A stretch of 64,000 bases of DNA from Teichococcus aerophilus (GTDB taxonomy: Bacteria; Pseudomonadota; Alphaproteobacteria; Acetobacterales; Acetobacteraceae). Under the pieces are notes generated by a model. That model had not been told where the DNA came from. It was given only the letters and a program-made list of their open reading frames with translations, and ran no database searches. Positions within the stretch are counted from its first letter, which is position 1; each line of letters starts with the position of its first letter. The stretch is from NCBI RefSeq assembly GCF_014490485.1, contig NZ_JACTVA010000008.1:1-64000 (forward strand), in the 5' to 3' direction. Of the stretch, positions 6,388-51,331 are shown piece after piece. A program made the position numbers and the translations under genes.

Positions 6388-6483
6388 TCAGAGCATGATG
6401 CGTTCACGCACCACGCTCTAAGCCCTGGTCTGGCCGCGCGATTCCGGCTTTCGGTGATCCACCTCAAGCCATCACGCTTTAGC
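6388..6483 (-). repeat. Dispersed intergenic repeat, copy A
   Basis: A 96-base copy, oriented on the minus strand. One end has a 13-bp stem with a 4-base loop: AGAGCATGATGCG (6390-6402) against CGCACCACGCTCT (6407-6419), with two G-U pairs when read on the minus strand. The core, read on the minus strand, is GGAATCGCGCGGCCAGAC. The other end carries GGCTT…AAGCC and the terminus CATCACGCTTTAG, whose complement supplies the TAA stop of the ABC1 kinase gene. The same element recurs at 12551, 22455, 22531, 48017, 49371 and 51257. Confidence 0.75.
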
Positions 6484-7852
6484 CGAGCGTGGGCGGCACC
6501 CGGGCTTCATCCAGCGCGGCGCGCTGGCGGGCGGCCAGTTCCTGCTCGTTGAAGTCCTGGATCAGCTCGTTGAACATGCGGTGCCAGTTCAGCTCCGCCC
6601 CCAGCCGCATGAAGGCACTGCCAAGGCCGACGGCGCTGCGGTCCACTAGCACGAACTCGCGTGGCGGCTTCACGCCACCGGTACGCTTCAGCCCGGCATG
6701 CACCTCGGCCGCAACCTTGCGGCCGAAATCGACATCGCCATCCGCCTGGATCGGCCGCACGCGGTCGTCGAGCAGCGGCTCGTGCAGGAAGCGGGCCCAG
6801 AGGCCAAGCACCTGCATCTTCTCCTTCGTCAGGTCGGTGAAGCCCCAGGTGCGGTAGGCCTCGTGCGCCTTCTCGTCGTCATGGTCGCGCATCGCCTCGT
6901 ACAGCATGATCACGCCACGCAGGAACTGAGGCGGGAAGATGCGGATGGCACCGTAGTCCAGCAGGTTGATGCCGGCGGGCTCGTCCCCCACCGGCTGGCG
7001 CACCTGGTAGTTGCCCAGATGCGGGTCCCCGTGAATGACGCCGAAGCGGTAGAACGGCACGTACCAGGCGTGGAACAGCGCGCGCGCATAGGCATTACGC
7101 TCTTCCAGCGGCGGTTCCTCGCCCAGTCGGTCCATGATCGGCCGGCCTTCCAGCCAGTTCATGGTCAGCAGCCGCTTGCTGCAATAGCCTTCGATCGGCC
7201 GCGGCGTCCGCACATCCGGCACGTCGTCGAGCATGATGTTGTACAGCCGCATCTGCGCGGCCTCACGCTCGTAGTCCAGCTCCTCGCGCAGCCGCTCGCA
7301 CAGCTCCAGATAGACGTCATCGTGCTGGATGGCGTCGTCCATGCGGGCGAAGATGCCCATGGCGATCTTCAGCTGGCGGAGGTCGGCCTCCACCACGCTC
7401 TGCATGTCCGGGTATTGCAGCTTGCAGGCGACCAGCGTGCCATCCGGCAGCGTGGCCCGGTGCACCTGCCCCAGGCTGGCGGCCGCGGCGGCTTCCTGGC
7501 CGAAGCTGGCGAACTTGGATTGCCAGTCCGTGCCCAGCTCGCTCGCCATGCGGCGGCGGACGAAATTCCAGCCCATTGGCGGCGCGTTCGCCTGCAGGGC
7601 CGCCAGTTCCTGCGCGTATTCCGCCGGCAGCGCATTCGGTACGGTGGAGAGAAACTGCGCCACCTTCATCAACGGGCCCTTCAGGCCGCCCAGCAACGCC
7701 TTCAGGTCGTTGGCATGCACGGCCTTGTCGGTCTTGATGCCCAGGAAGCGCTCACCCGCCACACGCGCGGCGATGCCGCCCACGGCGCCGGAGGTACGGG
7801 CCATGCGCCGCACCTCGCCGAAGAAGCTGCGGCCCTCGCGGTCCTCAGCCAT
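6479..7852 (-). CDS. ABC1/AarF/UbiB-family atypical kinase
   Basis: A 457-residue member of the ABC1 (ADCK/UbiB) atypical kinase family, related to proteins that support ubiquinone synthesis. Visible motifs: LMKVAQFLS in the position of the KxGQ signature (Gly replaced by Ala), AAAASLGQVHRA (alanine-rich loop), VACKLQYPD (nucleotide-binding Lys), HGDPHLGNY (catalytic loop) and LLDYGAI for the DFG-like motif. The ATG at 7852 is favoured by GGAGCG 8 bases upstream and overlaps the M3 peptidase stop by 8 bases; an ATG at 7870 is the alternative. The TAA stop lies inside repeat copy A. The exact substrate, or even kinase activity, is unproven for this subgroup. Confidence 0.9.
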   Translation of the reverse strand: MAEDREGRSFFGEVRRMARTSGAVGGIAARVAGERFLGIKTDKAVHANDLKALLGGLKGPLMKVAQFLSTVPNALPAEYAQELAALQANAPPMGWNFVRRRMASELGTDWQSKFASFGQEAAAAASLGQVHRATLPDGTLVACKLQYPDMQSVVEADLRQLKIAMGIFARMDDAIQHDDVYLELCERLREELDYEREAAQMRLYNIMLDDVPDVRTPRPIEGYCSKRLLTMNWLEGRPIMDRLGEEPPLEERNAYARALFHAWYVPFYRFGVIHGDPHLGNYQVRQPVGDEPAGINLLDYGAIRIFPPQFLRGVIMLYEAMRDHDDEKAHEAYRTWGFTDLTKEKMQVLGLWARFLHEPLLDDRVRPIQADGDVDFGRKVAAEVHAGLKRTGGVKPPREFVLVDRSAVGLGSAFMRLGAELNWHRMFNELIQDFNEQELAARQRAALDEARVPPTLG

Positions 7853-9680
7853 CGGCGCGCTCCAGTTCATCGATGAAGCCGGAAATCACATTCAATCCTT
7901 TGTGCCAGAAGGCAGGGTCGGCGGCGTTCAGGCCGAAGGGTGCCAGCAGCTCCTTGTGCCGCAGCGTGCCACCGGCCTTCAGCAGGTCGAGATACTTGGC
8001 CTGGAAGTCCTTCACGCCACCCTCCTGGAACACACCGTACAGCGCATTCACCAGGCAATCGCCGAACGCATAGGCGTAGACATAGAACGGCGAGTGGATG
8101 AAGTGCGGGATGTAGGACCAGTAGATCTCGTAATCCGGCGTGAACTCGAAGGCCGGGCCGAGGCTCTCCACCTGCACCTGCATCCACAGCGCGCCGATCT
8201 CCTCGCGCGACAGCTCGCCCTTGCGGCGGGCGTCGTGCAGCAGCGTCTCGAACCGGTAGAAGGCGATCTGCCGCACAACCGTGTTCAGCATGTCCTCCAC
8301 CTTGCCGGCCAGCAGGGCGCGGCGGCGCTTCGGGTCCTTCTCCGCGTCGAGCACGGCGCGGAAGGTCAGCATCTCGCCGAACACGCTGGCGGTCTCAGCC
8401 AGGGTCAGCGGCGTGCCGGACATCAGGTAGCCCCGGTCGGCGGCCAGAACCTGATGCACGCCATGGCCCAGCTCGTGCGCCAGGGTCATCACGTCGCGCG
8501 ACTTGCCGTGGTAGTTCAGCAGCAGATACGGGTGGGCGCTGGGCACCGTCGGGTGGGCGAAGGCGCCGGACGCCTTGCCGGGGCGCAGAGCGGCGTCGAT
8601 CCACGGCTTGTCGAAGAAGCGCTGGCCAATCCGGCCCAGCTCCGGGTCGAAGGAGGCATAGGCGGCCAGCACGCGGTCCCGCGCGGCATCCCAAGGGATG
8701 TTGCTATCGTCCTCGTCCGGCAGCGGGGCGTTGCGGTCCCAATGCTGCAGCTTGGGCAGGCCCAGCCACTTCGCCTTCATGGCGTAGTAGCGATGGGACA
8801 GCGCCGGGAAGCTGGAGACAACGGCGCTGACCAGCGCGTCCACCACCTCATCCTCCACCATGTTGGCGCGGTTGCGGCTGCTGCCGGGGCGCGGGTACTG
8901 CCGCCAGCCGTCGACGATCTCCTTGTCCTTGGCCAGGGTGTTGGTGATCAACGTGAACAGGCGCGCCTTCTCGCCGAACGCCGCCGAGACGCCCTTGGCT
9001 GCGGCTTCCCGCACTCCGCGATTGCGGTCCGACAGCTTGTTCAGGGCGCCGGAGACGTTGAGCGTCTCGCCCGCCACCGTCACCTCCATGCCGGCGATCG
9101 TCTCATCGAACAGGCGGTTCCAGGCGCTGCGGCCGGTCACCTCCTTCTCGTGCAACAGCCGCTCCGCCTCGTCCGAGAGCTGGTGCGGGCGGAACACGCG
9201 CAGGTCGCGCAGGAAGGGGCGGTAATGGGCCAGGGCCTTGCTTTTGCCGAGCTTGGCTTCCAGCACCTGGTCCTCCAGCTTGTTCAGCTCCAGCGTGAAG
9301 AACAGCAGGTGGGAGGAGATGGTGGTCACCCGCTCCTGCATCGTCTGGTAGAAGCGGCCATTCGCCGCGTCCTGCGCGTCGCCGGAGAAGACGAGCTGGG
9401 CGAAGGACATCACCCGCCCCAGCACTTCCTCGATCCGCTCATAGGCAGCGATGGCTTCGGCCAGGGCGTCGCCGGAGAGCTTCTCCAGCTTGCCGGCATG
9501 CGCGTCTTGGAACACCCGCGCGTCGGCATCGGCCTGCCGCAGGTCGGCCTCCAGCTTCGGGTCAGCGGCGCCATCATAGAGGTCGGACAGGTCCCAGGCC
9601 GGCAGAGCTGCGTCTCCCCCAGCGCCGTGGGGGCGGGAAGCGGTGTCGCGGGCGGGCTGGCGGAGAGGAGGAAACTGCAC
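7845..9680 (-). CDS. pepF: M3 family oligoendopeptidase (PepF-like)
   Basis: A 611-residue zinc oligopeptidase that degrades short peptides in the cytoplasm. The zinc motif HELGH is present as LAHELGHGVHQV at about residue 400, followed by the family pattern GTPLTLAETASVFGEML that contributes the third zinc ligand. Length matches PepF (about 600). The first codon appears to be GTG (MQFPPLRQP) because no ATG occurs before the conserved fold. The stop overlaps the ABC1 kinase start, so the pair is an operon, an arrangement I infer to be translational coupling rather than a shared pathway. Confidence 0.92.
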   Translation of the reverse strand: MQFPPLRQPARDTASRPHGAGGDAALPAWDLSDLYDGAADPKLEADLRQADADARVFQDAHAGKLEKLSGDALAEAIAAYERIEEVLGRVMSFAQLVFSGDAQDAANGRFYQTMQERVTTISSHLLFFTLELNKLEDQVLEAKLGKSKALAHYRPFLRDLRVFRPHQLSDEAERLLHEKEVTGRSAWNRLFDETIAGMEVTVAGETLNVSGALNKLSDRNRGVREAAAKGVSAAFGEKARLFTLITNTLAKDKEIVDGWRQYPRPGSSRNRANMVEDEVVDALVSAVVSSFPALSHRYYAMKAKWLGLPKLQHWDRNAPLPDEDDSNIPWDAARDRVLAAYASFDPELGRIGQRFFDKPWIDAALRPGKASGAFAHPTVPSAHPYLLLNYHGKSRDVMTLAHELGHGVHQVLAADRGYLMSGTPLTLAETASVFGEMLTFRAVLDAEKDPKRRRALLAGKVEDMLNTVVRQIAFYRFETLLHDARRKGELSREEIGALWMQVQVESLGPAFEFTPDYEIYWSYIPHFIHSPFYVYAYAFGDCLVNALYGVFQEGGVKDFQAKYLDLLKAGGTLRHKELLAPFGLNAADPAFWHKGLNVISGFIDELERADG

Positions 9681-9781
9681 GGGACGCCTTGCGGTTGTGG
9701 TTCTCTATCCCCCGATATAAGCCCATCTCCGGGTAGACCAAGCATCCGGCACCGGGAAGTGTGCGGAGATGAGGGAGGAAC

Positions 9782-11488
9782 ATGGCGTCCGACGAGAAGT
9801 GGAACAGCCTGCCGGGCATGATGCTCGGCCTGGCACGCCAATGGCCGGAACGGCCGATGCTGCGCTTCTGGCGCGGCGGCGGCTGGCAGCGGATGAGCTG
9901 GGCGGAATACGCCATGGCCGTTGCCTCCGTCGCGGCCGGCCTGCGCCAGAAGGGCGTCTGCCCGGGTGACCGGGTGCTGCTGGTCTCGGAGAACCGCCCG
10001 GAATTCCTCATCGCCGACACCGCCATCATGGCCATCGGCGCCGTCTCGGTCCCCACCTACACCACCAACACCAAGGCGGACCACGCGCATATCCTGAAGG
10101 ATTCCGGGGCGCGGGCGGCCATCGTCTCCTCCGCCAAGCTGGCGCGCACCCTGGCGGAGGCCGCCGGACTGGGCGGGCTGGACCTGCTGGTGGCGATGGA
10201 GGAGGCCGAGGATACCGTGCCCTGGGCCGAGCTGGCGGCGACGCCGCCGGACCTGGCGATGCTGGTGGCGGAGGTGGAGCACATCCCGCCCGGCCGCCTG
10301 GCCTGCCTGATCTATACCTCCGGCACCGGGGGCGCGCCGAAGGGCGTGATGCTGCCGCACCGGGCGATGCTGGCCAACCGGCATGGCGTCTCGGACTTCA
10401 TCCACGCGCTGAAGCTGCCGCAGGATGCCTGCTACCTCTCCTTCCTGCCGCTCTCCCACGCCTATGAGCATACGGTCGGCGGCTTCCTGCTGCCGTCCTT
10501 CGGCATCGAGGTGGTGTACAGCCGCGGCGCCGAGAAGCTGGCGGCCGAGTTGCAGCAGGTCAGTCCCGCCGTCGTTACCTCCGTGCCCCGACTGTTCGAG
10601 GTACTGCGCGCCCGCATCCTGGCCGGGCTGGAGAAGGACTCCCCCTTCAAGCGCCGGCTGTTCGACAAGGCGGTCAGCCTTGGCCTGCGCAAGCAGGACG
10701 GCCCGCCGCTGCGGCTGTGGGAACAGGTGCAGGACGCGGTGCTGGACCGCCTGGTGCGGGACAAGGTGCGGGCCCGCTTCGGCGGCAAGCTGCGCGCCTT
10801 CGTCTCCGGCGGGGCGCGGCTGGACCCGGGGCTGTCCGGCTTCTTCATCGCCCTCGGCATCCCGCTGATCCAGGGCTATGGGCAGACCGAGGCCGGGCCG
10901 GTCATCAGCGTCAACGTGCCGTGGGACAACCGCCGCCATACGGTCGGCCGCGTGCTGGAAGGCGTGGAGGCGACGATCGCCGCGGATGGCGAGGTGCTGG
11001 TGCGCGGCCCGCTGGTGATGGACGGCTACTGGAACAACCCGGACGCCACCGCCGGCGCGCTGATCGACCGCCAGGATGGCGGCGCGCCCTGGCTGCATAC
11101 CGGCGACGTGGGCGAGATCACGCAAGGCTACCTGCGCATCACCGACCGCAAGCGGGACATCATCAAGACCCTGGGCGGCGACATGGTCAGCCCCGCCAAG
11201 CTGGAAGGGATGCTGATGGCCGAGCCGGAGATCACCCAGGCGGTGGTGGCCGGCGATGGCCGCCCCGGCATCGCCGCCCTGGTGGTGGCGGCCGAGGGGC
11301 AGGAGGAAAACGTGGCGAAGGCGGTGGCCCGGGTGAACGGCCGCCTCTCCTCCATCGAGCGTATCCGCCACACGCTGACGCTGCCGCCCTTCACGCTGGA
11401 GGACGGGTTGCTGACGCCGACGATGAAGATCAAGCGCAAGGCGGTGCTGCAGGTGCATGCGGCGGCGCTCGACCGGATCTACGGCTGA
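9782..11488 (+). CDS. Long-chain acyl-CoA synthetase / AMP-binding ligase
   Basis: A 568-residue AMP-forming ligase. The phosphate-binding loop YTSGTGGAPKGVML is at about residues 177-190, the adenine motif is GYGQTEAGP, and the hinge/ATP motif WLHTGDVGEI…ITDRKRDIIK is near 440-462. The family activates a carboxylic acid, usually a fatty acid, to acyl-CoA through an acyl-AMP. The short final domain fits long-chain acyl-CoA ligases of the FadD15/AMP-binding type. GAGGGAGGAAC lies just before the ATG. Its TGA overlaps the ATG of the next gene (TGATG). Substrate chain length cannot be read from sequence. Confidence 0.93.
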   Translation: MASDEKWNSLPGMMLGLARQWPERPMLRFWRGGGWQRMSWAEYAMAVASVAAGLRQKGVCPGDRVLLVSENRPEFLIADTAIMAIGAVSVPTYTTNTKADHAHILKDSGARAAIVSSAKLARTLAEAAGLGGLDLLVAMEEAEDTVPWAELAATPPDLAMLVAEVEHIPPGRLACLIYTSGTGGAPKGVMLPHRAMLANRHGVSDFIHALKLPQDACYLSFLPLSHAYEHTVGGFLLPSFGIEVVYSRGAEKLAAELQQVSPAVVTSVPRLFEVLRARILAGLEKDSPFKRRLFDKAVSLGLRKQDGPPLRLWEQVQDAVLDRLVRDKVRARFGGKLRAFVSGGARLDPGLSGFFIALGIPLIQGYGQTEAGPVISVNVPWDNRRHTVGRVLEGVEATIAADGEVLVRGPLVMDGYWNNPDATAGALIDRQDGGAPWLHTGDVGEITQGYLRITDRKRDIIKTLGGDMVSPAKLEGMLMAEPEITQAVVAGDGRPGIAALVVAAEGQEENVAKAVARVNGRLSSIERIRHTLTLPPFTLEDGLLTPTMKIKRKAVLQVHAAALDRIYG

Positions 11489-12060
11489 TGCGGCTGCATC
11501 TGACGGGTGCCTCCGGCACCGGCACCAGCACGCTGGGTGCCGCCCTGGCCACGCGGCTGGGCTGCCCCTGCGTGGACAGCGACGACGCATTGTGGGAGCG
11601 GACGGACCCGCCCTTCACCCGGCTGCGTCCCGTCGCTGACCGGCTGGCCTGGCTGCAGGCCGCCCTGCCGGAAGGCGGTGCGGCGGATCGCTGGGTGGTG
11701 GCGGGCTCCATGGTCGGGTGGGGCGACCAGTTGCTGCCGAGCCTGAACCTGGTGGTGTATCTGAGCCTGGAGGCCGGGTCCCGCATGGAGCGCCTGCGGG
11801 CGCGGGAGGCGGCGCGCTACGGTGCCCGCATCACGCGCGGTGGCGACATGGCAGCCAACAGCGCCGCCTTCCTGGCCTGGGCCGCCGCTTACGACACCGC
11901 CGGGCCGAAGCAGCGCAGCCGCAGCCTGCACGAAGCCTGGCTGCGGGACCTGCCCTGCCCCGTGCTGCGGCTGGATTCGGCCGCGCCGGTCGACGAGTTG
12001 GCCGACGCGGTCATGGCGCATCCGGCCATTGGGCAGAGCCCGGGATTGTTGTTCCGATAA
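11488..12060 (+). CDS. P-loop NTPase-like protein with degenerate Walker A
   Basis: A 190-residue adenylate-kinase-like protein. The N-terminal loop is GASGTGTSTLG (residues 7-17): in a standard Walker A (GxxxxGK[ST]) the position before Ser would be Lys, but here it is Thr, so nucleotide hydrolysis may be weak, altered or lost. A DSDDALW acidic motif follows, as in shikimate/gluconate kinase-type proteins, and there is an Arg-rich lid-like stretch (RLRAREAARYGARITRGG). It overlaps the acyl-CoA ligase by one base, indicating co-translation. Function unknown; some database families contain the same GASGxGT loop. Confidence 0.75.
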   Translation: MRLHLTGASGTGTSTLGAALATRLGCPCVDSDDALWERTDPPFTRLRPVADRLAWLQAALPEGGAADRWVVAGSMVGWGDQLLPSLNLVVYLSLEAGSRMERLRAREAARYGARITRGGDMAANSAAFLAWAAAYDTAGPKQRSRSLHEAWLRDLPCPVLRLDSAAPVDELADAVMAHPAIGQSPGLLFR

Positions 12061-12121
12061 CGAACTGTTTGGCGGTAGAACGGCGTTCGGGAAGCCCCCG
12101 ACACGCCAGGAGGATGCCGCC

Positions 12122-12547
12122 ATGCCCTCGCCGGGTGAGATACTACGCCTGTGGTACGAAGAGGTCTGGAACCAGCGAGACGCCGAGAAGGTCCCGCGCT
12201 ACCTAGCGCCGGACGGCATCATCCACGCCCTGGATGTCGCCGGCGATGGCGCGCAGGGCGCGGAGGCGTTCCTGGCGTTCCAGCACCAACTGCTGCAGAG
12301 CTTCCCGGACCTGCGTTTCACCGTGCATGACGTGGTGGAGAATGGCGACTGGGCGGCGGGCCGCTGGTCGGCCGAGGCGACGCATAGCGGCGACGGCTTC
12401 GGGGTGAGCGCGACGGGGGAGCCGGTCAAGTTCACCGGCATGTCGATGGTCCGCGCGTCCGGTGGACAGATCGTCGAGGCCTGGAACGAATGGGACCGGA
12501 TCAGGCTGGCAACCACCTGCCGGATGGTGATGCCCGCATCCGGGTAA
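12122..12547 (+). CDS. SnoaL-like (ester cyclase / NTF2-fold) protein
   Basis: A 141-residue protein of the SnoaL-like polyketide cyclase superfamily: EILRLWYEEVWNQRDAEKV, then FPDLRFTVHDVVENGDWAAGRWS and a closing strand IVEAWNEWDRI. The family folds as an NTF2-like cone and includes cyclases, isomerases and many unassigned proteins. AGGAGG (12108-12113) sits 8 bases before the ATG, a strong site that fixes this start over a longer frame. It lies 61 bases after the P-loop gene and ends 3 bases before repeat copy B. Confidence 0.85.
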   Translation: MPSPGEILRLWYEEVWNQRDAEKVPRYLAPDGIIHALDVAGDGAQGAEAFLAFQHQLLQSFPDLRFTVHDVVENGDWAAGRWSAEATHSGDGFGVSATGEPVKFTGMSMVRASGGQIVEAWNEWDRIRLATTCRMVMPASG

Positions 12548-12550
12548 GGC

Positions 12551-12634
12551 CGCGATGGCTTAGGGCGGAATCACCGAAAGCCTGAATCACGCGACCAGAC
12601 ACAGTCAGAGCATGGTGTGTGAACGACTATGAGC
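12551..12634 (+). repeat. Dispersed intergenic repeat, copy B
   Basis: About 84 bases on the plus strand between two convergent genes. It contains the first hairpin unit GGCTT…AAGCC, the core TGAATCACGCGACCAGAC and the second unit AGAGCATGGTGTGTGAACG. The core matches copy A at nearly every base. The outer termini are more decayed than in copies C and D (no good AGCGTGAT end). Confidence 0.7.
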
Positions 12635-12729
12635 GCGTCAAGCTCCGGCGCGCGTTGGCCTCAGCGTCGTCCTGGAAAGGCAGCAAAAGATCAGGCCGCG
12701 CCGCGGAACTCCGCGGCACGGCCCGCGCA

Positions 12730-13032
12730 TCACATGCCGAGGGCGCGGCGGTACAGGTCCAGCAGGGTTTCCTGCTCTTCCACATCCGCCGGCTCCTGCT
12801 TGCGGATGCGGATGATCTGGCGGATCACCTTCACCTCGAAGCCTGCCGACTTCGCCTCGGAGAAGATATCCTTGATGTCGTCGGCCAGCGCCTTGCGCTC
12901 TTCCTCCAGCCGCTCCACCCGCTCGATGATCGAGCGCAGGCGGTCGACGGCAATGCCGCCTACTTCGCTTTCGGGGTCGGCGGCCTGGCGGTCGCGGCTG
13001 GCCTTCGCGTCCTGTTCGTCGAAATCGCTCAT
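12730..13032 (-). CDS. DUF2312 / GapR family DNA-binding protein
   Basis: A 100-residue protein matching the DUF2312 (UPF0335) family, whose Caulobacter member GapR is a nucleoid-associated protein that binds overtwisted DNA. Diagnostic features are a long coiled coil (LRSIIERVERLEEERKALAD) and the conserved segment GFEVKVIRQIIRIRKQ, ending DLYRRALGM. The ATG at 13032 is preferred over a TTG one codon earlier because GGAGACC is well placed upstream. The family is almost exclusive to Alphaproteobacteria. It sits alone, convergent with the SnoaL-like gene. Confidence 0.9.
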   Translation of the reverse strand: MSDFDEQDAKASRDRQAADPESEVGGIAVDRLRSIIERVERLEEERKALADDIKDIFSEAKSAGFEVKVIRQIIRIRKQEPADVEEQETLLDLYRRALGM

Positions 13033-13108
13033 CAAGGGTCTCCGGACAGTGCAGCGAACGAGGCCGGCGCCATCGCGGGCGCCGGGGCGCGCGGTATAGC
13101 TTGGCGGA

Positions 13109-13129
13109 GGGAGGGGGGCAAACCCTCCC
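13109..13129 (-). terminator. Inverted repeat after the DUF1244 gene, weak terminator
   Basis: GGGAGGG (13109-13115) and CCCTCCC (13123-13129) can form a 7-bp hairpin about 70 bases after the DUF1244 stop, before the next minus-strand gene. No clear T-run follows. Confidence 0.28.
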
Positions 13130-13199
13130 TTCCCTCGTTACGCGGCTGATCCTTGCAAGCCTGGGCTCGAATGTCCGGGCCCGGCATGCCCGGCGGCGC

Positions 13200-13505
13200 T
13201 CAGTGGCCCGGGTTGCTGGCGGCCAGCTTCGCCTTCTGCTCCGGCGTCGCCTCGATCTGGTGCTTGGCCTGCCACTCCTTATAGGGCATGCCGTAGACGA
13301 TCTCCCGCGCCTCGGGGTCGGTCAGCGGGATGCCCTGGCCTTCCGCCGCCTCGCGGTACCAGCGGCTGAGGCAGTTGCGGCAGAAGCCGGCCAGATTCAT
13401 CAGGTCGATATTCTGCACGTCCGACCGCTCGCGCAAATGCTCCACCAGCCGGCGGAACGCGGCGGCCTCAAGCTCGGTACGGGTGGTCTCGATATCGCTG
13501 GTCAT
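13200..13505 (-). CDS. DUF1244 family protein
   Basis: A 101-residue protein of the DUF1244 family, recognised by the central segment LMNLAGFCRNCLSRWY followed by ADPEAREIVYGMPYKEW-like sequence (here TDPEAREIVYGMPYKEW). The FCRNC cysteine pair is conserved in the family and could bind a metal, but no function is known to me. The chosen ATG gives MTSDIETTRTELE; a longer frame upstream is arginine/alanine rich without motifs. It follows the aminotransferase gene by 96 bases on the same strand. Confidence 0.88.
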   Translation of the reverse strand: MTSDIETTRTELEAAAFRRLVEHLRERSDVQNIDLMNLAGFCRNCLSRWYREAAEGQGIPLTDPEAREIVYGMPYKEWQAKHQIEATPEQKAKLAASNPGH

Positions 13506-13600
13506 GGGCGGTGGCCCTCCTGTTCCCCGCACAGGTGGGGCAGGAGGGCGGTCCGGTTCAAGTCTTGCGCTGCCGCGCCCTGGTCCCGAAGCGCAGGCGT

Positions 13601-14785: not shown

Positions 14786-14843
14786 GGTGATCGTTCTCCC
14801 TGGCCGACAGCCCTACCCGCCATCCATCGCATCCGCCAATGAG

Positions 14844-14871
14844 TTCGGCTTGTCGGATTGATGAGTATTAT
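14844..14871 (+). promoter_or_regulatory. Possible sigma70-type promoter for the FAD/Fe-S dehydrogenase
   Basis: TTCGGC (14844-14849) and TATTAT (14866-14871) are separated by 16 bases and lie 55 bases before the start codon, in the most AT-rich part of the divergent gap. Only a partial match to consensus. Confidence 0.35.
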
Positions 14872-14925
14872 AGATCGGACAGCGGCAGGGCGCCCGGCTA
14901 GGCTGGCCGGCAAGAAGGAAGCTCC

Positions 14926-22454: not shown

Positions 22455-22501
22455 CCTGAAGCAGACCAAAGCGTGCCGTGTGGACGCGCGGCACGCGCTA
22501 C
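22455..22501 (+). repeat. Dispersed intergenic repeat, truncated copy G
   Basis: About 47 bases on the plus strand holding the end part of the repeat: GCCTGAA, a shortened core with ACCAAAG, and the second hairpin GCGTGCCG (22471-22478) paired with CGGCACGC (22489-22496), ending CGCTA like the CTCTA end of copy E. It lies 30 bases before copy C, in opposite orientation. Confidence 0.55.
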
Positions 22502-22530
22502 CGGGGGACCCCGTGCCCCCTCCTGCCCGC

Positions 22531-22636
22531 CTGGAGCGTGACCTGTTCATAGGCATTCACAGACCCCGCCCCAGGCCCTTACTTGATGGCGTGATTCAGG
22601 CCTGCGGTGATCCCACCGCAGGCGACCACGCTCCAG
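22531..22636 (-). repeat. Dispersed intergenic repeat, copy C, complete
   Basis: A 106-base copy and the clearest one. The terminal inverted repeats are perfect over 10 bases: CTGGAGCGTG (22531-22540) and CACGCTCCAG (22627-22636). Read on the minus strand, the first hairpin is CCTGCGGTG-GGAT-CACCGCAGG, a perfect 9-bp stem, followed by the core TGAATCACGCCATCAAGT. The hairpin bases differ from those in other copies but still pair. Confidence 0.8.
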
Positions 22637-44708: not shown

Positions 44709-44817
44709 GACACTCAGTTTCCTCGTTGGAGCGTATAGTACCCCTGCACGATAGACCGAGGCCGGGCGAAAGGGCTACCGGCTGCGTGCAAGGCAGCCCC
44801 CCGCACGCCGCCCGGCC

Positions 44818-46410
44818 TCAGGCCCGGCGCAGATTCCAGAAGATCGGCAGCCCCTCCACCCGCCCGGTCAGGCTCTTCCGCAGGGCGGTGCGGAAGTAGT
44901 AGGTGCCGGTCGGGATATAGGCGACCTCGTCGATCACGGTGCGCTGGATCTCGCCGGCAATGGCCTTGCGCTGTGCTTCGTCCGGCGCATCGAACCAGCT
45001 GTCCCGCAACGTCTCCAGCTGCGGGATGTCGGCCCAGCCGAACCAACCCTGCCGGCCATTGCCGCGCACCAGCGGGTGGGAGGCCGGGCTGGCGAAGTCG
45101 AAGCTGGAGAAGCCAGTGGTGATGGCGGACCAGCCGCCCTTCTCCACCGGCTCCTGGCTAGCCCGGCGCTGCAGCACCGTGCCCCAGTCGGAGGTCGCGT
45201 AATCCAGGTTGAGGCCCAGCCGGCGGAACAGGTCCGCCGCCACCTGGCTCCAGGCGGAAGCGGCGGGAATGTCCGTCGGGCCCAGGATGCGGGTCAACTG
45301 GTCGGTATAGCCGGCCTCCTTCAACAGGCCGCGGGCCTTGTCCAGGCTGCGCGGCTCCCGCAGCGATTCCAGTCCGACATCGCTGGCGTAGGGGGAGCCG
45401 GGGGTGAACACGCCGGTATCGTCGCGCCAGTTGGCCCGCTCCGGCCCCGCATTGGCGGTCATGAAATCGGACTGGGAGATGGCGTAGCGCAGCGCCTGGC
45501 GCACCGCCTTGTTGTCGAACGGCGCGTGCAGGTGGTTCAGCCGCAGCAGGCCGTTATTGCCGCCGGTATCCAGCACCTCGACCGAGAGGTTGCGGTCGCG
45601 CTGGAACAACTCCAGCAACTCGTACTCCGGCATCTCGAACCAGTCGATCTCGCCGGCCTGCAGGGCGGCGGAGGCGGTGCCGCCATCGCTGATGATTCGC
45701 CACTCGATCCGCTCGAAATGCGCGATCTTCGGCCCCGCCGTCAGGCTCGGCGTACCGGCCTGCACCGGATTGTAGCCATCGAAGCGCGCATAGGCGGCGA
45801 GCGAGCCGTTGTTGTACTCGTCCTTCAGGAAGCGATAGGGGCCGGAGCCGGTGGCGTCCTCGATCTGCTTGAACGCATCGGTCTGCGCGACCCGTTCCGG
45901 CATGATGAAGGCGGGCTGGCCGGCGAAGGACAGGGCGTGGATCAGCAGCGGGAACGGCTTCTTCAGCCGGAACTGCAGCCGCCGGTCATCCAGCGCCGAG
46001 AGTTCCTCCGTCGCCGCCAGCAGCTTCTGGCCGAAGGCGTTGCGCAGGCCCCAGCGGCGGATGCTGGCCACCGCGTCCCGTGCCCGGATCGGCTCCCCAT
46101 CATGGAAGCGGATGCCCTCCCGCAGCGTGATGATCCAGCGCTTGCCGTCCTCCTCCACGCTGTGGCCGGCGGCGAGCTGTGGGTGCGGCGCGTAGGCGCG
46201 GTCGGCGCCGTACAGCGTGTCGTAAACCATGTAGCCGTGGTTGCGGCTGACATTGGCGGTGGTCCAGATCGGGTCGATCGAGCTGAGGTTGGATTGCGGG
46301 ACGAAGCGCAAGACCTTGCTGTCAGCCGCCAGGGCGGGGCGGGCCAACGGCAGGGCGGCGGCCGCGCCGAATGCGGCCAGGAAGCTGCGTCGCTGCATCG
46401 GAAAGGGCAT
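44818..46410 (-). CDS. Peptide-type ABC transporter substrate-binding protein, Tat signal
   Basis: A 530-residue SBP_bac_5 protein. The N-terminus MQRRSFLAAFGAAAALPLA has a twin-arginine motif and ends ALAAD. The body has LRFVPQSNLSSIDPIWTTA, HDGEPIRARDAVASIRRWG and YRFLKDEYNNG, as in peptide/opine-binding proteins. No permease or ATPase genes adjoin. A locally AT-rich gap upstream probably holds its promoter. Confidence 0.92.
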   Translation of the reverse strand: MPFPMQRRSFLAAFGAAAALPLARPALAADSKVLRFVPQSNLSSIDPIWTTANVSRNHGYMVYDTLYGADRAYAPHPQLAAGHSVEEDGKRWIITLREGIRFHDGEPIRARDAVASIRRWGLRNAFGQKLLAATEELSALDDRRLQFRLKKPFPLLIHALSFAGQPAFIMPERVAQTDAFKQIEDATGSGPYRFLKDEYNNGSLAAYARFDGYNPVQAGTPSLTAGPKIAHFERIEWRIISDGGTASAALQAGEIDWFEMPEYELLELFQRDRNLSVEVLDTGGNNGLLRLNHLHAPFDNKAVRQALRYAISQSDFMTANAGPERANWRDDTGVFTPGSPYASDVGLESLREPRSLDKARGLLKEAGYTDQLTRILGPTDIPAASAWSQVAADLFRRLGLNLDYATSDWGTVLQRRASQEPVEKGGWSAITTGFSSFDFASPASHPLVRGNGRQGWFGWADIPQLETLRDSWFDAPDEAQRKAIAGEIQRTVIDEVAYIPTGTYYFRTALRKSLTGRVEGLPIFWNLRRA

Positions 46411-46427
46411 CCATTCTCATCTATTCG

Positions 46428-46475
46428 ATGCGCCTTTTCTTAATGCACTAATTTTTACCGCACAAGAAACTCCAG
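46428..46475 (-). promoter_or_regulatory. AT-rich probable promoter of the Tat-exported binding protein
   Basis: The most AT-rich short stretch between the two genes. On the minus strand TTGTGC and TAAGAA are spaced by 17 bases, at about the right distance before the start at 46410. Each box matches only half of the consensus. Confidence 0.33.
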
Positions 46476-46496
46476 AACGATTCTCCATGCTGAATT

Positions 46497-46516
46497 GGGG
46501 AGGCTGCCACCTCCCC
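46497..46516 (-). terminator. Terminator-like hairpin after the ABC-F gene
   Basis: GGGGAGG (46497-46503) and CCTCCCC (46510-46516) form a 7-bp stem just after the ABC-F stop (read on the minus strand), with an AATT stretch but no long T-run. Confidence 0.42.
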
Positions 46517-46522
46517 TCGCCT

Positions 46523-48001
46523 TCAGCCTTCCTCTCGCAACATGCCGCCGCGCACCACCAGCCGTCGCGTCGCCACCGCCTGCACGAAGGCGCGGTCGTG
46601 CGAGACCAGCACGCAGGTCGCGCCCTGGGCAATGATCTCCTCCTCCAGCCGTTCCTGGCCGGCGATGTCGATATGGTTGGTCGGCTCATCCAGCAGGTAG
46701 AAATTCGGCTCGGCCAGCCGCAGCGCCAGCAGGCCCAGCCGCGCTTTCTGCCCGGGCGAGAGCTGCGCGATGGCCCGCCCCTGCCGGTCCATGGCAATGC
46801 CGGCCGAGGCCAGCAGGGACCGCACCTTCTGGTCCCCCAGGTCGAACCGTCCGGCAATGAAGGCGTGCGGCGTTGCCTTCTGCGGCAATTGCGACATCTG
46901 CTGGTCCATGTAGCCCATCACCGCCGTGGCACTGGCGCGGATGCCGGGGATGTCCGCCCCCTCCATCGCCTGCCGCAGCAGCCCGACGAGGCGGGACTTG
47001 CCGGCGCCGTTGGCGCCCAGCAGCACGACCCGCTCCCCCTGCGCGATGGAGAGCTTGCCGGTGCGGAACAGCTTCGTGCCATCCGGCGCGGTGACGGTGA
47101 TATCCTCCAGCGTCAGCATCACCTTCGCATGGGTGCCGCGATTGGCCAGGCGGATCTCGCCCGCGCGCTCGCTGTGCACGGGTTGCAGGCGGTCCTCCAG
47201 CGCCTCGGCACGCCGGGCCATCTGCGCCGCCTTTTTCTGCGCGGCGTCGCTGCTTCGGTTGATGCCGATATTCTTCAGCTCGCCGGCGCTGCGGCGCAGG
47301 CGGGTGGCTTCCTTGCCATCGCGTTCCAGCTGCGTCTGGCGGGCGGCGTCATCCTCCGCCAGCAGGTGCCGGGCGCGGGTATAGGGGTGGGCGTAGTAGG
47401 CGCTGACACCCGGGCGCAGAAACAGCGTGCGGTTGGTGCAGCGGTCGAGGAAGCGGCGGTCGTGGCTGGCGATGACGATCGGCATCTGCCGTGCCGGGTC
47501 GTTGATCCAGCCTTCCAGCAACTCGATCTTTTCCAGGTCCAGGTGGTTGGTCGGCTCGTCCAGCAGCAGCGCGTCCGGCTCCGCCACCCAGGCGCGGGCG
47601 ATCAGCGCGAGCCGCTGCCAACCGCCGCTGAGCTGGCGCACCGGCCGCTCATGCAACGCCAGCGGCGCCGCGAACTCATCCAGCACCACATCGACACGCC
47701 AGGCCTGCCCATCCCGCTCGGCGGCGGGGATAGCGCGGCGGATGGCCTCGTACAAAGGCAGGTCCAGCAGGTTGGGTGGCATGTCCTGCTCCACCAGCCC
47801 GACGCGAAGGCCGCGGGAGCGGGTGATCTCGCCGGCGCCCGGCTCGGCCTGCCCGGCCAGGCAGCGCAGCAGGGTGGACTTGCCGGCGCCGTTGCCGGCG
47901 ACCAGCCCCAGCCGGTCGCCATCCTGCAAGGTCAGGGTCAGGTCCTGGAACAGCGACTCGGGCGTCAGGATGCCGACGCCGCGCAGATTGAGGGAGCCCA
48001 T
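46523..48001 (-). CDS. ABC-F family ATP-binding protein
   Basis: A 492-residue ABC-F protein with two nucleotide-binding domains and no membrane segment. The first has Walker A GNGAGKSTLL, signature LSGGWQRLALIARAW and Walker B LLLDEPTNHLD; the second has GANGAGKSRLV, LSPGQKARLGLLALRL and YLLDEPTNHID. A charged linker with Arg/Lys-rich helices separates them. ABC-F proteins act on the ribosome in translation control or antibiotic protection; this is not a clear EttA. Its start lies 16 bases after repeat copy D, so D forms the mRNA leader. Confidence 0.92.
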   Translation of the reverse strand: MGSLNLRGVGILTPESLFQDLTLTLQDGDRLGLVAGNGAGKSTLLRCLAGQAEPGAGEITRSRGLRVGLVEQDMPPNLLDLPLYEAIRRAIPAAERDGQAWRVDVVLDEFAAPLALHERPVRQLSGGWQRLALIARAWVAEPDALLLDEPTNHLDLEKIELLEGWINDPARQMPIVIASHDRRFLDRCTNRTLFLRPGVSAYYAHPYTRARHLLAEDDAARQTQLERDGKEATRLRRSAGELKNIGINRSSDAAQKKAAQMARRAEALEDRLQPVHSERAGEIRLANRGTHAKVMLTLEDITVTAPDGTKLFRTGKLSIAQGERVVLLGANGAGKSRLVGLLRQAMEGADIPGIRASATAVMGYMDQQMSQLPQKATPHAFIAGRFDLGDQKVRSLLASAGIAMDRQGRAIAQLSPGQKARLGLLALRLAEPNFYLLDEPTNHIDIAGQERLEEEIIAQGATCVLVSHDRAFVQAVATRRLVVRGGMLREEG

Positions 48002-48016
48002 GGATATCTCTCACAC

Positions 48017-48123
48017 AGCGTGATGGCGGGCGGGCCTTGCCGCCATGGCCGTATCACGCGCCAGATCTTTGTTTGACCGCGCGATTCACGCCTTTGAGTG
48101 CTTCCACCTCAGGCGATCACGCT
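48017..48123 (-). repeat. Dispersed intergenic repeat, copy D, complete
   Basis: A 107-base copy. Terminal inverted repeats AGCGTGAT (48017-48024) and ATCACGCT (48116-48123) are perfect. On the minus strand the first hairpin pairs CGCC/GGCG and TGAG/CTCA, the core is TGAATCGCGCGGTCAAAC, and the second hairpin pairs ATGGCGG/CCGCCAT plus the outer GCGTGAT/ATCACGC. It lies just upstream of the ABC-F start. Confidence 0.8.
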
Positions 48124-48395
48124 CTCGTCACGGCCCGCCGGCGCGGCAGGCCGCAGGAATGCCCGGCCGGCGAAACGCCAGGCGGGCACAGGCGCCGTTC
48201 AGAGCGGTCTGTGGAAATCCGGGGCCATGCCCGGCATCAGGCCCGCCCCGCGGCATCGTGCCACGGGGCAAGGCAGGGTCCGCGCGGGTGGTGCTGGTCG
48301 TAGGATGTCATGTCCAGCCCTCCTGCATGCCGGTTGCGCCAGGCGGAGGCTATCAAGCCCGGGCGCGGCGCGCCAGGGGCCGATGGCGGTCGCTC
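48124..48395. other. Gap upstream of repeat copy D with one small ORF
   Basis: Between the EamA stop and repeat D. Apart from the 24-codon frame at 48237-48311 no other coding signal is visible, and I see no good promoter. Confidence 0.4.
48237..48311 (-). CDS. Possible 24-residue small protein
   Basis: MTSYDQHHPRGPCLAPWHDA is the first part of a 24-residue frame preceded by a perfect AGGAGG (48319-48324) with 7 bases to the ATG. The peptide has two adjacent His, one Cys and an amphipathic end. No known domain. It lies between the EamA gene and the ABC-F gene on the same strand, so it could be an upstream ORF influencing ABC-F expression, a small protein, or chance. Confidence 0.4.
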   Translation of the reverse strand: MTSYDQHHPRGPCLAPWHDAAGRA

Positions 48396-49343
48396 TCAGG
48401 CCAGGCGGGCCCGGCGGCGCAGCACGCCGCTGGCCAACACAACGCCGGAGGTGATCAGCAGGCAGCCGGCCAGTTCCGGCAGGCCCGGGGCCTCGCCCAG
48501 CAGCAGCATGGCCACCAGCGTCACCGCCACAGGCGTCAGCGCCGTGATGGCGGAGGTGCGGGAGGGGCCGAGGTAGCGCACAGCGGTGGTGAAGGTGATC
48601 AGCGCCACGACGCCGGCCATGATGCCCTGGATCAGCACGTGCTTCAGCAACACGCCGGCCGGCATCTGCGCCATGCCCTCCAGCGCCGGCAGCAGGGCGA
48701 AGGGCGCCAGCAGCAGCACCGACCACAGCCCGACGAACGCCGCCGCCTGCACCCCGCTCAACCCGCTGCGCCGGAACGCGACCGTGTAGATGGACCAGGA
48801 GAAGGCCGCCGCCAGCACCAGCAGATGGCCGCGCCAGTGCCCGTCCGCGAACCGCAGCAACCCGGTGCCGGTGATGGCCAGGGCACCGAGGGTGATCAAC
48901 ACGATGCCGGCGATACGCACACCACTCAGCTTCTCGCCCTGAACCAGCAGGGAGAGCAGGCCGATGAACAACGGCAGCGTACCGGCCAGCAGCGGCCCGG
49001 CTTCCGATGCCGGGGCGTAGCGCAGGCCCCACAGCACCAGGAACTGGTAGGGCAGCCCGCCGAACATCAGCCCGAGCAGCGCCAGCTTCGGCACGCCGCG
49101 CGGGATGAGGCCACAGCGCCACCACCATGGGGCCAGCAGCAGTGCCGAGGTGCCGAAGCGGATGACCGCCAGCAGGGCCGGGCTGAGCGGCTGCGCCCCC
49201 TGCATGGCGAAGCGGGAACCGACGGTCCAGGTCGTCCACATCGCCACCGTCATCAGCGCCGCCAGGATGCCGATGCGGAGGGAGGCGCGGGACGTATCGG
49301 GCGTGGCCGGCGCCTCGGCGGGCAGGCATTGGGCATGGCTCAT
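48396..49343 (-). CDS. EamA/DMT-family transporter
   Basis: A 315-residue membrane protein with about ten hydrophobic segments in two EamA repeats. The first repeat begins AALMTVAMWTTWTVGSRFAM, the second VLAAAFSWSIYTVAFRRSGL. Both have the PxxxxxxR pattern (SPALLAVIRFGTSALLL). The drug/metabolite superfamily exports amino acids, sugars or other metabolites; the substrate is unknown. It is flanked by repeat copies D and F in opposite orientations. Confidence 0.9.
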   Translation of the reverse strand: MSHAQCLPAEAPATPDTSRASLRIGILAALMTVAMWTTWTVGSRFAMQGAQPLSPALLAVIRFGTSALLLAPWWWRCGLIPRGVPKLALLGLMFGGLPYQFLVLWGLRYAPASEAGPLLAGTLPLFIGLLSLLVQGEKLSGVRIAGIVLITLGALAITGTGLLRFADGHWRGHLLVLAAAFSWSIYTVAFRRSGLSGVQAAAFVGLWSVLLLAPFALLPALEGMAQMPAGVLLKHVLIQGIMAGVVALITFTTAVRYLGPSRTSAITALTPVAVTLVAMLLLGEAPGLPELAGCLLITSGVVLASGVLRRRARLA

Positions 49344-49370
49344 CGGGGACCTCCGGCACAGGCGGTGGTG

Positions 49371-49452
49371 AGAGCGCGATCGCCCGGATCAGGGACGCGG
49401 ATCGCGCAACCAGACAAAGGCCCAGCGCACGGCCGCCGCATCGCGCGGCGGC
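49371..49452 (+). repeat. Dispersed intergenic repeat, copy F, degenerate
   Basis: About 82 bases on the plus strand. The left end is AGAGCGCGATCGCC, the core is GGATCGCGCAACCAGAC (one base shorter than the consensus) and the right part is replaced by a GCCGCCGC/GCGGCGGC hairpin (49432-49452). It lies between the EamA start and the phoD stop. Confidence 0.6.
49432..49452 (-). terminator. Hairpin after the phoD gene
   Basis: GCCGCCGC (49432-49439) pairs with GCGGCGGC (49445-49452) over a 5-base loop, 75 bases after the phoD stop on the minus strand, without a strong T-run. Confidence 0.3.
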
Positions 49453-49526
49453 GGACGGTTCTGGACAGCGATCCTGCCGTTTTCCTCGCTTCCTCAGTAA
49501 CCCACGCAGCGCGGGGCGGGAACCCT

Positions 49527-51110
49527 TCAGGCCCGCACCGGCCCTGGCCGCCCGGCCTCGACGACGAAGCGCGCCCGGTCCTCCCGCGCCGCGCCGGGGG
49601 TGGTGACGTGGGAGACGGCCCGGTAGGTGGCGGAGAAGGTGGTGCTGTTCACCTCATGCAGCGTGTAGCCGCGCCGGGCATTGAAGAATGCCAGATGCGG
49701 GTTGCGCGCCATCTCCGCCGGCGTGCCGCGCTTTGCCTCGGACCCATCGCCACCGGAACTGATGGAGGTGGCGGTGAACTCGGTACCAATGGCAGGACTG
49801 TCCTCCCGGTCGTAATCCAGCTTCAGCGTGCCGGCCAACGCCACATGCACGTCACCCGAGACGACGACGAGGTTGCGCGGCGCCTGCAACGCCCCGAACA
49901 CGCGGCGGCGGGCGGCGGGGTAGCCATCCCACTTGTCCATGTGCAGGCGCTGGGTGGCGTCCGTGCCCGCATCCACCCGCAACATCGGCACCTGTTGCGC
50001 CAGCAGGCGCCAGCTGGCCTGGCTGCGGCCCAGGCCGCGTGCCAGCCAGGCCTCCTGCGCCGGGCCGATCATCTGCGCCGCCGGGTCCTGCTGCGCGGCG
50101 CAGACGGGCTTCACCCCGTCGCCACAGGGCTGGTCGGTGCGGAAGCTGCGTGTGTCCAGCACCGCGATATCCAGCAGCCGGCCGTAGCGCAGCGCCCGGT
50201 AGGCCTCGATCTCCGGCCCGTGCGGCAACTGGGCGCGGCGCAGCGGCATGTGCTCGTACCAGGCCTGGAAGGCGGCCTGCTTGCGCAGGGCGAAGACCTC
50301 CGGCGGCACGGCGGGGCGGTTCGGGCGACTGCCGTCATCCTGGCTGAACGGGCCGGCCCAGTTGTTCTGCACCTCGTGGTCGTCGAAGGAGGGCAGGAAC
50401 GGGTGTGCCGCCTGTGCCGCCGCCAGATCAGGGTCCAGCTTGTACAGGGCGTAGCGGGCCCGGTACTCGTCCAGCGACACCGGCTCCGGCCCCTCATGGA
50501 AGCGGATGGCGCTGGCGTTGCGGCCGGATTCGTAGATGTAGTCGCCATAGTGGAAGACGAAGTCGAGCTCCTCCTCCTCGGCCACGTGCTTCCAGGCGGT
50601 GAAGTAGCCCTGCTGGTAGTTCTGGCAGCCGGCATTGACGAAGCGCAGCCGCGCCGGCGCGGCATCCGCCGCCGGTGCCGTGCGGGTGCGCCCGGTGCGG
50701 GAGAGCCACGCGCCGTAGCGGAAGCGGTACCAGTAAATGCGCCCCGGCTGCAGGCCGGAGACCTCGGCGTGCACCGCATGCGCCAGTTCCGGCCGCGCCA
50801 GTGCCTCGCCCGTCGCGGCGATGGCGCGGAACTCCGGGTCGTGCGCGATGTCCCACGCCACCGGCAGTGCAAGGCGTGGCATGCCGCCGCCGGCCAGGGG
50901 CTCCGGCGCCAGCCGCGTCCACAGCACCACGCCATCCGGCCACGGATCGCCGGAGGCCACGCCGAGGGTGAACGGGTTCCCCGCCAGGGCCGGCGCGCCC
51001 AGCGCCCGCGGTGCCGTGCCCTGGGTGGCGGCCAGCGCCGCCATGCCCAGCGCGCCGCGCAGCAGCCCACGGCGGGAGAGGTCGAGGATATGGCGCTGCT
51101 GGCTGTCCAT
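49527..51110 (-). CDS. phoD: PhoD-like alkaline phosphatase/phosphodiesterase
   Basis: A 527-residue PhoD family enzyme. The N-terminus has a twin-arginine signal (DLSRRGLLRGALGMAAL), then NPFTLGVASGDPWPDGVVLW, the PhoD N-terminal domain. The metallophosphatase core shows FVNAGCQNYQQG, FVFHYGDYIYE and FLPSFDDHEVQNNWAG, which supply Fe3+/Ca2+ ligands in PhoD. It should act on phosphomono- or diesters outside the cytoplasm, probably during phosphate need. No Pho box was recognised. Single gene between repeat copies F and E. Confidence 0.93.
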   Translation of the reverse strand: MDSQQRHILDLSRRGLLRGALGMAALAATQGTAPRALGAPALAGNPFTLGVASGDPWPDGVVLWTRLAPEPLAGGGMPRLALPVAWDIAHDPEFRAIAATGEALARPELAHAVHAEVSGLQPGRIYWYRFRYGAWLSRTGRTRTAPAADAAPARLRFVNAGCQNYQQGYFTAWKHVAEEEELDFVFHYGDYIYESGRNASAIRFHEGPEPVSLDEYRARYALYKLDPDLAAAQAAHPFLPSFDDHEVQNNWAGPFSQDDGSRPNRPAVPPEVFALRKQAAFQAWYEHMPLRRAQLPHGPEIEAYRALRYGRLLDIAVLDTRSFRTDQPCGDGVKPVCAAQQDPAAQMIGPAQEAWLARGLGRSQASWRLLAQQVPMLRVDAGTDATQRLHMDKWDGYPAARRRVFGALQAPRNLVVVSGDVHVALAGTLKLDYDREDSPAIGTEFTATSISSGGDGSEAKRGTPAEMARNPHLAFFNARRGYTLHEVNSTTFSATYRAVSHVTTPGAAREDRARFVVEAGRPGPVRA

Positions 51111-51256
51111 CGGGCGGGCTTCTCTGGCACGGCCGGGATGCGCGCGGCCGCATTGGCGTGCCCGGTGGCTGTAGCCGGCATCGCCGCCGCTTCCAACGCC
51201 GGCCGAATGTCACAGCCAAAACGTCATCCGCCAGCCATGTCGGCGCTGGTGGGCCA

Positions 51257-51331
51257 AGGGCATGACGTGGGATGACCGAAACGCCTGAATCGCGCGATCA
51301 GAGCAGGGCGTGCGAACGCGGCACGCTCTAG
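51257..51331 (+). repeat. Dispersed intergenic repeat, copy E
   Basis: A 75-base plus-strand copy. Core TGAATCGCGCGATCAGAG, then a 9-bp hairpin AGGGCGTGC / GCACGCTCT with loop GAACGCG, and the end GCACGCTCTAG, whose complement includes the TAG stop of the glycosyltransferase gene. The first hairpin unit is partly lost. Confidence 0.72.

Follow-up and report, generated by a model that had tools for sequence, protein, structure and literature searches.

A two-hairpin mobile repeat of Teichococcus aerophilus, its YTAR target and its relatives

Short palindromic repeats are easily noticed between bacterial genes, and each raises the question of whether it moves, how it selects its sites and what enzyme could carry it there. 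That question arises in a 64,000-nucleotide stretch of Teichococcus aerophilus (Acetobacteraceae), positions 1 to 64,000 of contig NZ_JACTVA010000008.1 (the window), which is part of a genome of 5.66 Mb in 140 contigs. An initial annotation, made from the letters of the window, had listed seven copies of a repeat of about 100 bp and had taken it for a miniature inverted-repeat transposable element (MITE) or a repetitive extragenic palindromic (REP)-type element. The comparisons described here, including the genome-wide, family-wide and insertion-site searches which that annotation had proposed, show that the repeat is a non-coding mobile element of about 106 bp with two hairpins able to form in DNA. 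Below, we describe its target and its anatomy, and then weigh what may move it and where it belongs.

Mobility and target site

The first line of evidence is orthologous empty sites: for each of 14 elements from the sister species G154 and G162, the two flanks were joined and searched in both genomes. Seven sites matched continuously in the other sister genome. Four of these are clean empty sites, whose junction holds a single CTAG, CTAG, TTAG or CTAA; two are less clean, with small gaps nearby (L203 with CTGG and L206 with CTAC), and the seventh, L207, is messy. At L213 a stretch of 111 bp separates the flanks in the other genome, and from this spacing the site is taken as occupied there, while four further sites were matched by one flank only and two were unmatched. 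The second line is the existence of many near-identical copies in some species, which shows that the element moved recently there: 20 copies of G088 differ from their consensus by 0.75 mismatches per 99 bases and sit in unrelated flanks. Such copies are found in G088, G089 and G090 instead of T. aerophilus itself, whose copies are scattered over many contigs and in which 26 aligned copies have a mean column identity of 83%, so that the local and continuing spread once suggested for the window finds no support.

The ends of young copies define the target. Among ten copies of G089 and 20 of G090, TA stands at both sides in 30 of 30, and the ends read Y-TA-G...C-TA-R with few exceptions. The outer bases are unlike between the two sides (in G089, six C and four T on the left, six A and four G on the right), which excludes a 4-bp duplication and leaves TA duplicated at most. 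The element inserts at YTAR, mostly CTAG, with the TA duplicated, two TA being present with the element and one in the empty sites. That the CTAG-like ends reflect a choice of target, a guess of the initial annotation, is therefore borne out by the empty sites and by the ends of near-identical copies. In its target-site duplication, its empty sites in relatives (with exceptions in G088 and G024), its copy length of about 95-107 bp and its lack of a transposase gene, the repeat resembles a MITE. CTAG itself is rare in the window, with 14 occurrences against about 179 predicted from base composition.

Many insertions end on stop codons. In open frames of at least 120 codons, delimited mechanically and not called as genes, the stop (nearly always TAG) coincides with a terminal 4-mer at 71 of 176 element ends, that is at 15/58 in T. 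aerophilus (G000), 17/40 in G088 and 39/78 in G154 and G162. Random positions gave 1 of 1080 sides, and 57 other CTAG sites gave 29 of 114; because CTAG sites without the element also lie on stops, the association largely follows from CTAG targeting.

Further observations concern the genomes with young copies. Several copies of G090 form head-to-tail arrays with one CTAG in common (L302, L306, L311, L312, L316 and L319), as expected if the end of the element is itself a target. In G088 a second palindromic repeat (GCCGATTCACCTG..CTTGGGGACCAAGCG..) adjoins two copies (flanks of L090 and L101), and the strand bias of copies along the G088 chromosome had no block pattern by eye.

Anatomy, window copies and abundance

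The layout is constant: hairpin I, bulged by 3-4 nt on the 3' side, is followed by a linker that contains AAACAAAG and then by hairpin II. The consensus, CTAGAGCGTGATGGCTTGAGGTGGAATCACCGAAAGCCTGAATCACGCGACCAAACAAAGGCnTAGAGCATGGTGCGTGAACGAATGTGAACGCATCATGCTCTAn, comes from the 26 aligned copies of the T. aerophilus genome (three of them from the window), in which columns 6-49 hold hairpin I with its inner stem, 50-66 the linker and 67-104 hairpin II; six of these copies are shorter by ten bases in that last region. The shared asymmetric core of the initial annotation is real and comprises the linker together with the 3' side of hairpin I. Standard pairs occupy 91.4% of 580 cells in 20 long copies, a percentage that is not independent on its own, the structure being derived from the same 20 sequences; two-sided changes occur in 9 of 29 pairs, in both hairpins, and 0 of 500 shuffles attained these values. 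A GAATC in hairpin I is retained in 25 of the 26 aligned copies, the remaining one being gapped there. We take this to be a GANTC site of the CcrM type, and a link to methylation is only a thought; GANTC occurs 56 times in window positions 1-64000, against about 179 expected.

A profile built from 23 copies of the same genome, with the window excluded, was compared with 20 Markov shuffles, the best of which scored 9.0 bits. Five of the seven proposed window copies (A, B, D, E and G) exceed this, at 26.1-76.4 bits and in both orientations as first reported; C and F do not rise above chance. Copy A (6388-6482, minus strand) is a short-loop form of 95 bp that scores 86.0 bits with the covariance model, has a fold z of -4.5 and is matched by the profile at 6390-6482 (-) with 74.8 bits. 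Hairpin I lies at 6436-6477 (-), from the strand fold and the stem covariation in the alignment of long copies; the linker at 6421-6435 (-), which reads GGCCAGACCAGGGCT for a consensus GACCAAACAAAGGCn in the own-genome alignment; and hairpin II with the right end at 6390-6419 (-), from the fold. Copy B (12545-12648, plus strand) scores 87.2 bits with the covariance model, of which it is one of the 20 sequences, and 76.4 bits at 12551-12646 (+) with the profile that leaves it out; its fold is not beyond shuffles (z 0.48). Copy D (22531-22636, minus strand) is complete, with 106 bp and the ends CTGG...CCAG; it reaches 97.5 bits with the covariance model, again as one of the 20 model sequences, 67.8 bits at 22532-22636 (-) with the profile that excludes it, and a fold z of -4.4.

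Copy E (48013-48127, minus strand), divergent in its right half, has 55.2 bits with the covariance model, 40.0 bits at 48051-48125 (-) with the profile and a moderate fold z of -1.94. Copy G (51259-51331, plus strand) is shortened: the profile gives 26.1 bits at 51259-51329 (+), over model positions 13-104, the covariance model only 21.0 bits (E 0.27), and the fold is not beyond shuffles (z -0.08). 'Copy F' (49371-49440, plus strand), which resembles a remnant of unit 1 (the conserved part of the element, as distinct from hairpin II), has a profile score of 6.0 bits, inside the shuffle range with its maximum of 9.0, and a fold z of -0.03; of the three copies said to lie within 3.3 kb, E and G thus stand and F is unsupported. 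'Copy C' (22455-22515, end approximate, no strand assigned), a possible remnant of linker and hairpin II, is absent from the covariance-model matches and has no profile match even at E<=10. Both C and F may be decayed remnants of the repeat. Folding in the window is accordingly uneven, with A and D strong, E moderate and B, F and G like shuffles.

Copies A, B and G sit on the stops of open reading frames (ORFs) with Pfam matches. The left-end CTAA of copy A supplies the TAA of an ABC1-kinase ORF (6479-7870, minus strand), the decayed left end of copy B overlaps the TAA of a SnoaL-like ORF (11822-12547, plus strand), and the right-end CTAG of copy G (51328-51331) supplies the TAG of a glycosyltransferase-like ORF (51328-52236, minus strand), according to the ORF list and Pfam. 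For copies A, B and D, four or five genus mates each were compared for empty sites; the element was unrecognisable in them and the intergenic DNA too diverged for the junction to be read.

The repeat is abundant well beyond the window. A blastn search of the T. aerophilus genome with copy D gave 41 matches at E<=10, and the covariance model R1 gave at least 131 at E<=0.001 and at least 146 at E<=1 among 150 candidates scored. R1 consists of 20 sequences that match by construction, and, as it contains hairpin II, relatives with another hairpin II are possibly undercounted. Within the genus, 14 of 17 genomes have a match, from 0 (G155, G159 and G163) to 131 in T. aerophilus; within the family it is 79 of 150 genomes and 60 of 102 genera at E<=0.001. 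The core TGAATCACGCGAYCAAACAAAG was found in at least 116 stretches among named genome contigs, and the 80 listed rows belong to Acetobacteraceae, Rhodospirillales or records of unnamed Proteobacteria metagenome-assembled genomes. Viral contigs gave no match to the core pattern, and a plasmid collection gave none to copy A or to the G383 and G089 elements.

A changing right end and the enzymes that could read it

The two halves of the element evolve differently. In G154 and G162 unit 1 is conserved and hairpin II varies among copies: differences per site amount to 0.17 and 0.15 in the left tip and to 0.57 and 0.48 in the right tip (17 and 21 copies), and the arms of hairpin II nevertheless match each other at 0.88 and 0.87, where shuffling leaves 0.48 and 0.53. 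In six of 262 same-genome pairs, which come from five G154 copies in two groups, only one of 56 unit-1 sites differs and eight of 16 right-arm sites do. This points to hairpin II, which bears the right end, being swapped as a block between copies with its arms staying complementary. Between species, too, hairpin II is replaced while remaining a palindrome, and it is uniform within G088, G089 and G090. Two loci (G000:C119:108855-109023 and G154:C378:44927-45096) consist of a unit-1-only piece followed directly by a complete element, which might be the trace of a new copy that inserted at the inner CTRG or took its place.

The terminal inverted repeat (TIR) of the initial annotation is hence only partly there and, hairpin II being replaced with its palindromy kept, is no constant trait. 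In 29 of the best T. aerophilus copies, the ten bases just inside the left 4-mer match those just inside the right one at 67%; the identity of the two tips is 1.00 in G089, 0.67-0.70 in G000, G088, G090 and G024, and 0.52-0.53 in G154 and G162. A solo hairpin II as the mobile unit was considered and rejected: about 327 kb held nine near-perfect hairpins without a preceding linker and nine with one, equal numbers such as the two strands of complete elements would give (two checked by coordinates), in a scan that detects near-perfect hairpins only and missed all window copies.

Exchange of hairpin II as a block would keep the right end palindromic though its sequence changes. A serious possibility, which we still rate below an even chance, is that template switching (palindrome correction) perfects hairpin II; compensatory changes would then need no selection, and the process may accompany transposition. 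The first base of the inner foot equals the outermost right base more often than the left base does in G089 (8 against 6 of 10), G154 (16 against 10 of 17), G162 (19 against 15 of 21) and G088 (17 against 14 of 20), and in G024 a CTGG inner foot accompanies three of four CCAG right ends. The T. aerophilus copies, however, show the opposite (5 against 11 of 29), the inner foot of G088 is CTGG in 19 of 20 copies, so that its six CCAG ends do not discriminate, and template switching alone fails to explain a half-arm changed en bloc alongside a single unit-1 change.

As for the mover, a DDE transposase of the IS5/IS427 group would act on the element in trans, duplicating TA within YTAR as IS711 does; an IS630-type enzyme would be the less likely agent. 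The element, too short to encode a transposase, would be non-autonomous, and the enzyme would come from full-length insertion sequence (IS) elements in the same cells. CTAG being rare and often part of a stop, many insertions would leave neighbouring genes intact and would place two hairpins in the 3' untranslated region (UTR). We consider it probable, with moderate confidence, that a non-autonomous element about 106 bp long is here inserted at YTAR by such an enzyme, IS5/IS427 rather than IS630. According to passages of PMC2266754, the Brucella element IS711 duplicates TA within YTAR and has an association with Bru-RS repeats, which passages of PMC3163539 also give for Bru-RS1/2; IS711 is the best-documented parallel to the insertion signature described here.

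IS5/IS427-type domains (PF13340) occur in all eight genomes asked. Inverted ends beside TA, with the outer C/T and G/A not demanded, were sought at 30 of 101 PF13340 places and at all 28 PF13358 (DDE_3) places. Twelve of the 30 IS5-type loci (in G000, G088, G154, G162 and G163) have paired ends 839-908 bp apart, 11 of them in CTA...TAG and one in TTA...TAA, with tips GAGG, GAGC, GGGC, GGCT, GGCG, AGGG, AGAG or AGAA. These ends have the target and the duplication of the element, sometimes a similar tip, and no longer similarity; the best tip resembles it at 9 of 14 bases (L349, in the element-free G163).

Several findings weigh against an IS5/IS427 enzyme acting at YTAR. Across the 58 IS630- and IS5-type loci no autonomous IS has the ends of the element beyond a few tip bases. 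PF13340 counts do not follow copy number, the element-free G163 and G155 having 35 and 11 and, among element-rich genomes, G000 having 15, G089 1 and G090 2 fragments. The tip agreement of 52-53% in G154 and G162 is odd for a transposase that binds TIRs, TA is not always duplicated (right ends are CCAG in 6 of 20 G088 and 4 of 10 G024 copies), and the excess of stop codons is largely a by-product of CTAG itself. By its insertion signature the repeat is MITE-like, but its changing right end departs from the textbook form.

An IS630/mariner-type MITE, inserted by an IS630 transposase at the TA of CTAG, has a small chance of being the right description. The RUP of pneumococcus is an IS630/mariner-type MITE and offers a parallel. 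TA duplication is a hallmark of IS630 (passages of PMC2170065), and G088 has 21 DDE_3 matches, several of its IS630-type loci being flanked by CTA...TAG. Of the 28 IS630-type loci scanned, 15 have such ends, many in CTA...TAG, but with tips other than the element's (such as AGTAGG, TTGATCC and AGCCGG, unlike GAGC), and PF13358 matches at E<=0.001 number 0 in G000 and G154, 2 in G162 and 5 in G090.

A REP- or BIME (bacterial interspersed mosaic element)-like repeat, moved as a single strand by a REP-associated tyrosine transposase (RAYT) or an IS200/IS605 HUH transposase that reads hairpins, would account for conserved hairpins of varying sequence, the two-hairpin layout and the conserved linker, and a complete Y1_Tnp gene (148 aa, E 3.6e-40) is present in G090, a genome with many young copies. 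Against this, Y1_Tnp (RAYT/IS200) occurs in only 17 of 150 family genomes, with G000, G088 and G089 not among them although the last two hold young copies; TA is duplicated at a palindromic target; and Acetobacteraceae are reported in passages of PMC3733652 to lack CGTC repeats. Of the two identities first offered, the MITE-like signature stands; REP-type movement is unlikely, and we give it very little credence. Least probable of all is a structured RNA gene or 3'-UTR element (terminator or small RNA, sRNA) duplicated for its function without being mobile: covariation in both hairpins, the many ends on stop codons and a look-alike listed by Rfam as a Brucella sRNA would suit it, yet the orthologous empty sites, the unrelated flanks of near-identical copies, the range from 0 to 131 copies within one genus and the decayed window copies speak against it, and a use as RNA is compatible with mobility, as copies could serve after landing.

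Relatives across the class

The initial annotation knew of no named family that fits. Rfam, at gathering score, indeed returned none for the window, but the layout is like that of rhizobial repeats, and RF02600 (Brucella sRNA CI27) matches below its cut-off at two of 13 loci, L183 (E 7.8e-5 in 4.3 kb, 4.5e-4 in 25 kb) and L256. In 15 chosen genomes RF02600 places at E<=0.01 number 21 in G089, 15 in G274, 7 in G285, 5 in G154 and 1 in G162, and 10 of the 15, including G000, G088, G090 and G024, have none; no match exceeds the gathering score, some span hairpin II only, and one of 14 control genomes matched (Caulobacter vibrioides). Where coordinates are comparable (G154 C378, C262, C88 and C331; G162 C81; G089 C7; G285 C12; G274 C63), the matches overlap independently found elements. 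RF02600 has the layout of the repeat with other stem sequences, and we assume that it holds a Bru-RS-like repeat; together with part of RF02599, also listed as a Brucella sRNA, it resembles copies of such a mobile repeat.

Of 289 Alphaproteobacteria genomes, 10 contain the pattern AAACAAAGNNNTAGAGC and six its reversed control, once with 15 matches (G396), so that the counts alone prove little. G274, from another family, has 33 matches against 0 for the control. The contexts in G274, G383, G422, G285 and G190 have the same layout with unrelated stems; G172 has its right half, and the single matches in G336, G335 and G352 are without it. Relatives of the G285 element lie on 313 of 72,556 plasmid records, chiefly of Rhizobium (163) and Sinorhizobium (125), mostly as hairpin I plus linker, with at least 80% covered in one record.

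Nine sequences of 106-110 bases were compared, their ends set by eye: the T. aerophilus consensus, S. meliloti, R. leguminosarum, G383, G422, G274, G089, G162 and the RF02600 consensus. The linker CAAA stands at 56-59 and the second foot at 64-67, so that both fall within three bases, a size and two-hairpin layout in keeping with Bru-RS and RIME; eight of the nine fold into two hairpins, and G422 folds otherwise. The plasmid elements of S. meliloti and R. leguminosarum are 106 bp long; their CAAA stands at base 57, their second foot at 65, and their hairpin sequences are unlike those of the window. Bru-RS of Brucella was reportedly described by Halling and Bricker in 1994, and RIME1 of rhizobia, said to go back to Osteras in 1995, is reportedly intergenic, with two palindromes and about the size of the repeat. 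Passages of PMC2245857 cite RIME1. Passages of PMC10800456, PMC3163539 and PMC2266754 give Bru-RS1 and Bru-RS2 as palindromic repeats of 103 and 106 bp; these resemble the repeat and share the YTAR link through IS711, which PMC2266754 describes as Brucella-specific.

Other known systems are more distant. MITEPsy1 of Pseudomonas syringae, according to passages of PMC3189936, is similar in having 100 nt, a tentative relation to IS5 and a CTAG or YTAA target; it differs in a 4-nt duplication and 18-nt terminal repeats, the present repeat duplicating TA only and having variable ends. REP/BIME systems with RAYT are likewise high-copy palindromes close to gene ends, with GTAG/CGTC tags instead of CTAG ends and with the RAYT that T. 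aerophilus lacks. Bradyrhizobium Br-REP1/2 were rejected as a match, their consensus sequences in passages of PMC5082802 being different. No repeat of this kind was found described for Acetobacteraceae among the open-licence papers listed, and the MITE review PMC10969869 does not contain the words Rhizob-, Brucella, Alphaproteobacteria, IS427 or RIME.

The repeat seems to represent a new branch, within Acetobacteraceae, of a group that is spread across the class and probably includes RIME and Bru-RS. Small palindromic repeats of rhizobia and Brucella appear so far to have been described genus by genus. A more far-reaching reading, to which we give only a minor probability, would be a class-wide superfamily whose identity lies in the secondary structure of its DNA or RNA and in an unchanging linker, not in its end sequences. 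Its left module and AAACAAAG linker would be kept, while the right hairpin, which bears the right end, would time and again be replaced or rewritten and then perfected anew. Such an element would stay mobile while its ends, and possibly its transposase, change, and RIME, Bru-RS, some Rfam 'sRNAs' and the Acetobacteraceae repeat would be its lineages.

For the biology of these genomes, the empty sites and the near-identical copies provide a testable insertion rule, TA in YTAR and mainly CTAG, and insertion at stop codons could be a reason why compact genomes come to hold so many copies of such elements. The replacement of hairpin II with its palindromy preserved raises the question of what reads the structure. 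Finally, the shared layout suggests one old class-wide group, and some entries that Rfam lists as 'sRNA', RF02600 for one, may represent mobile repeats.

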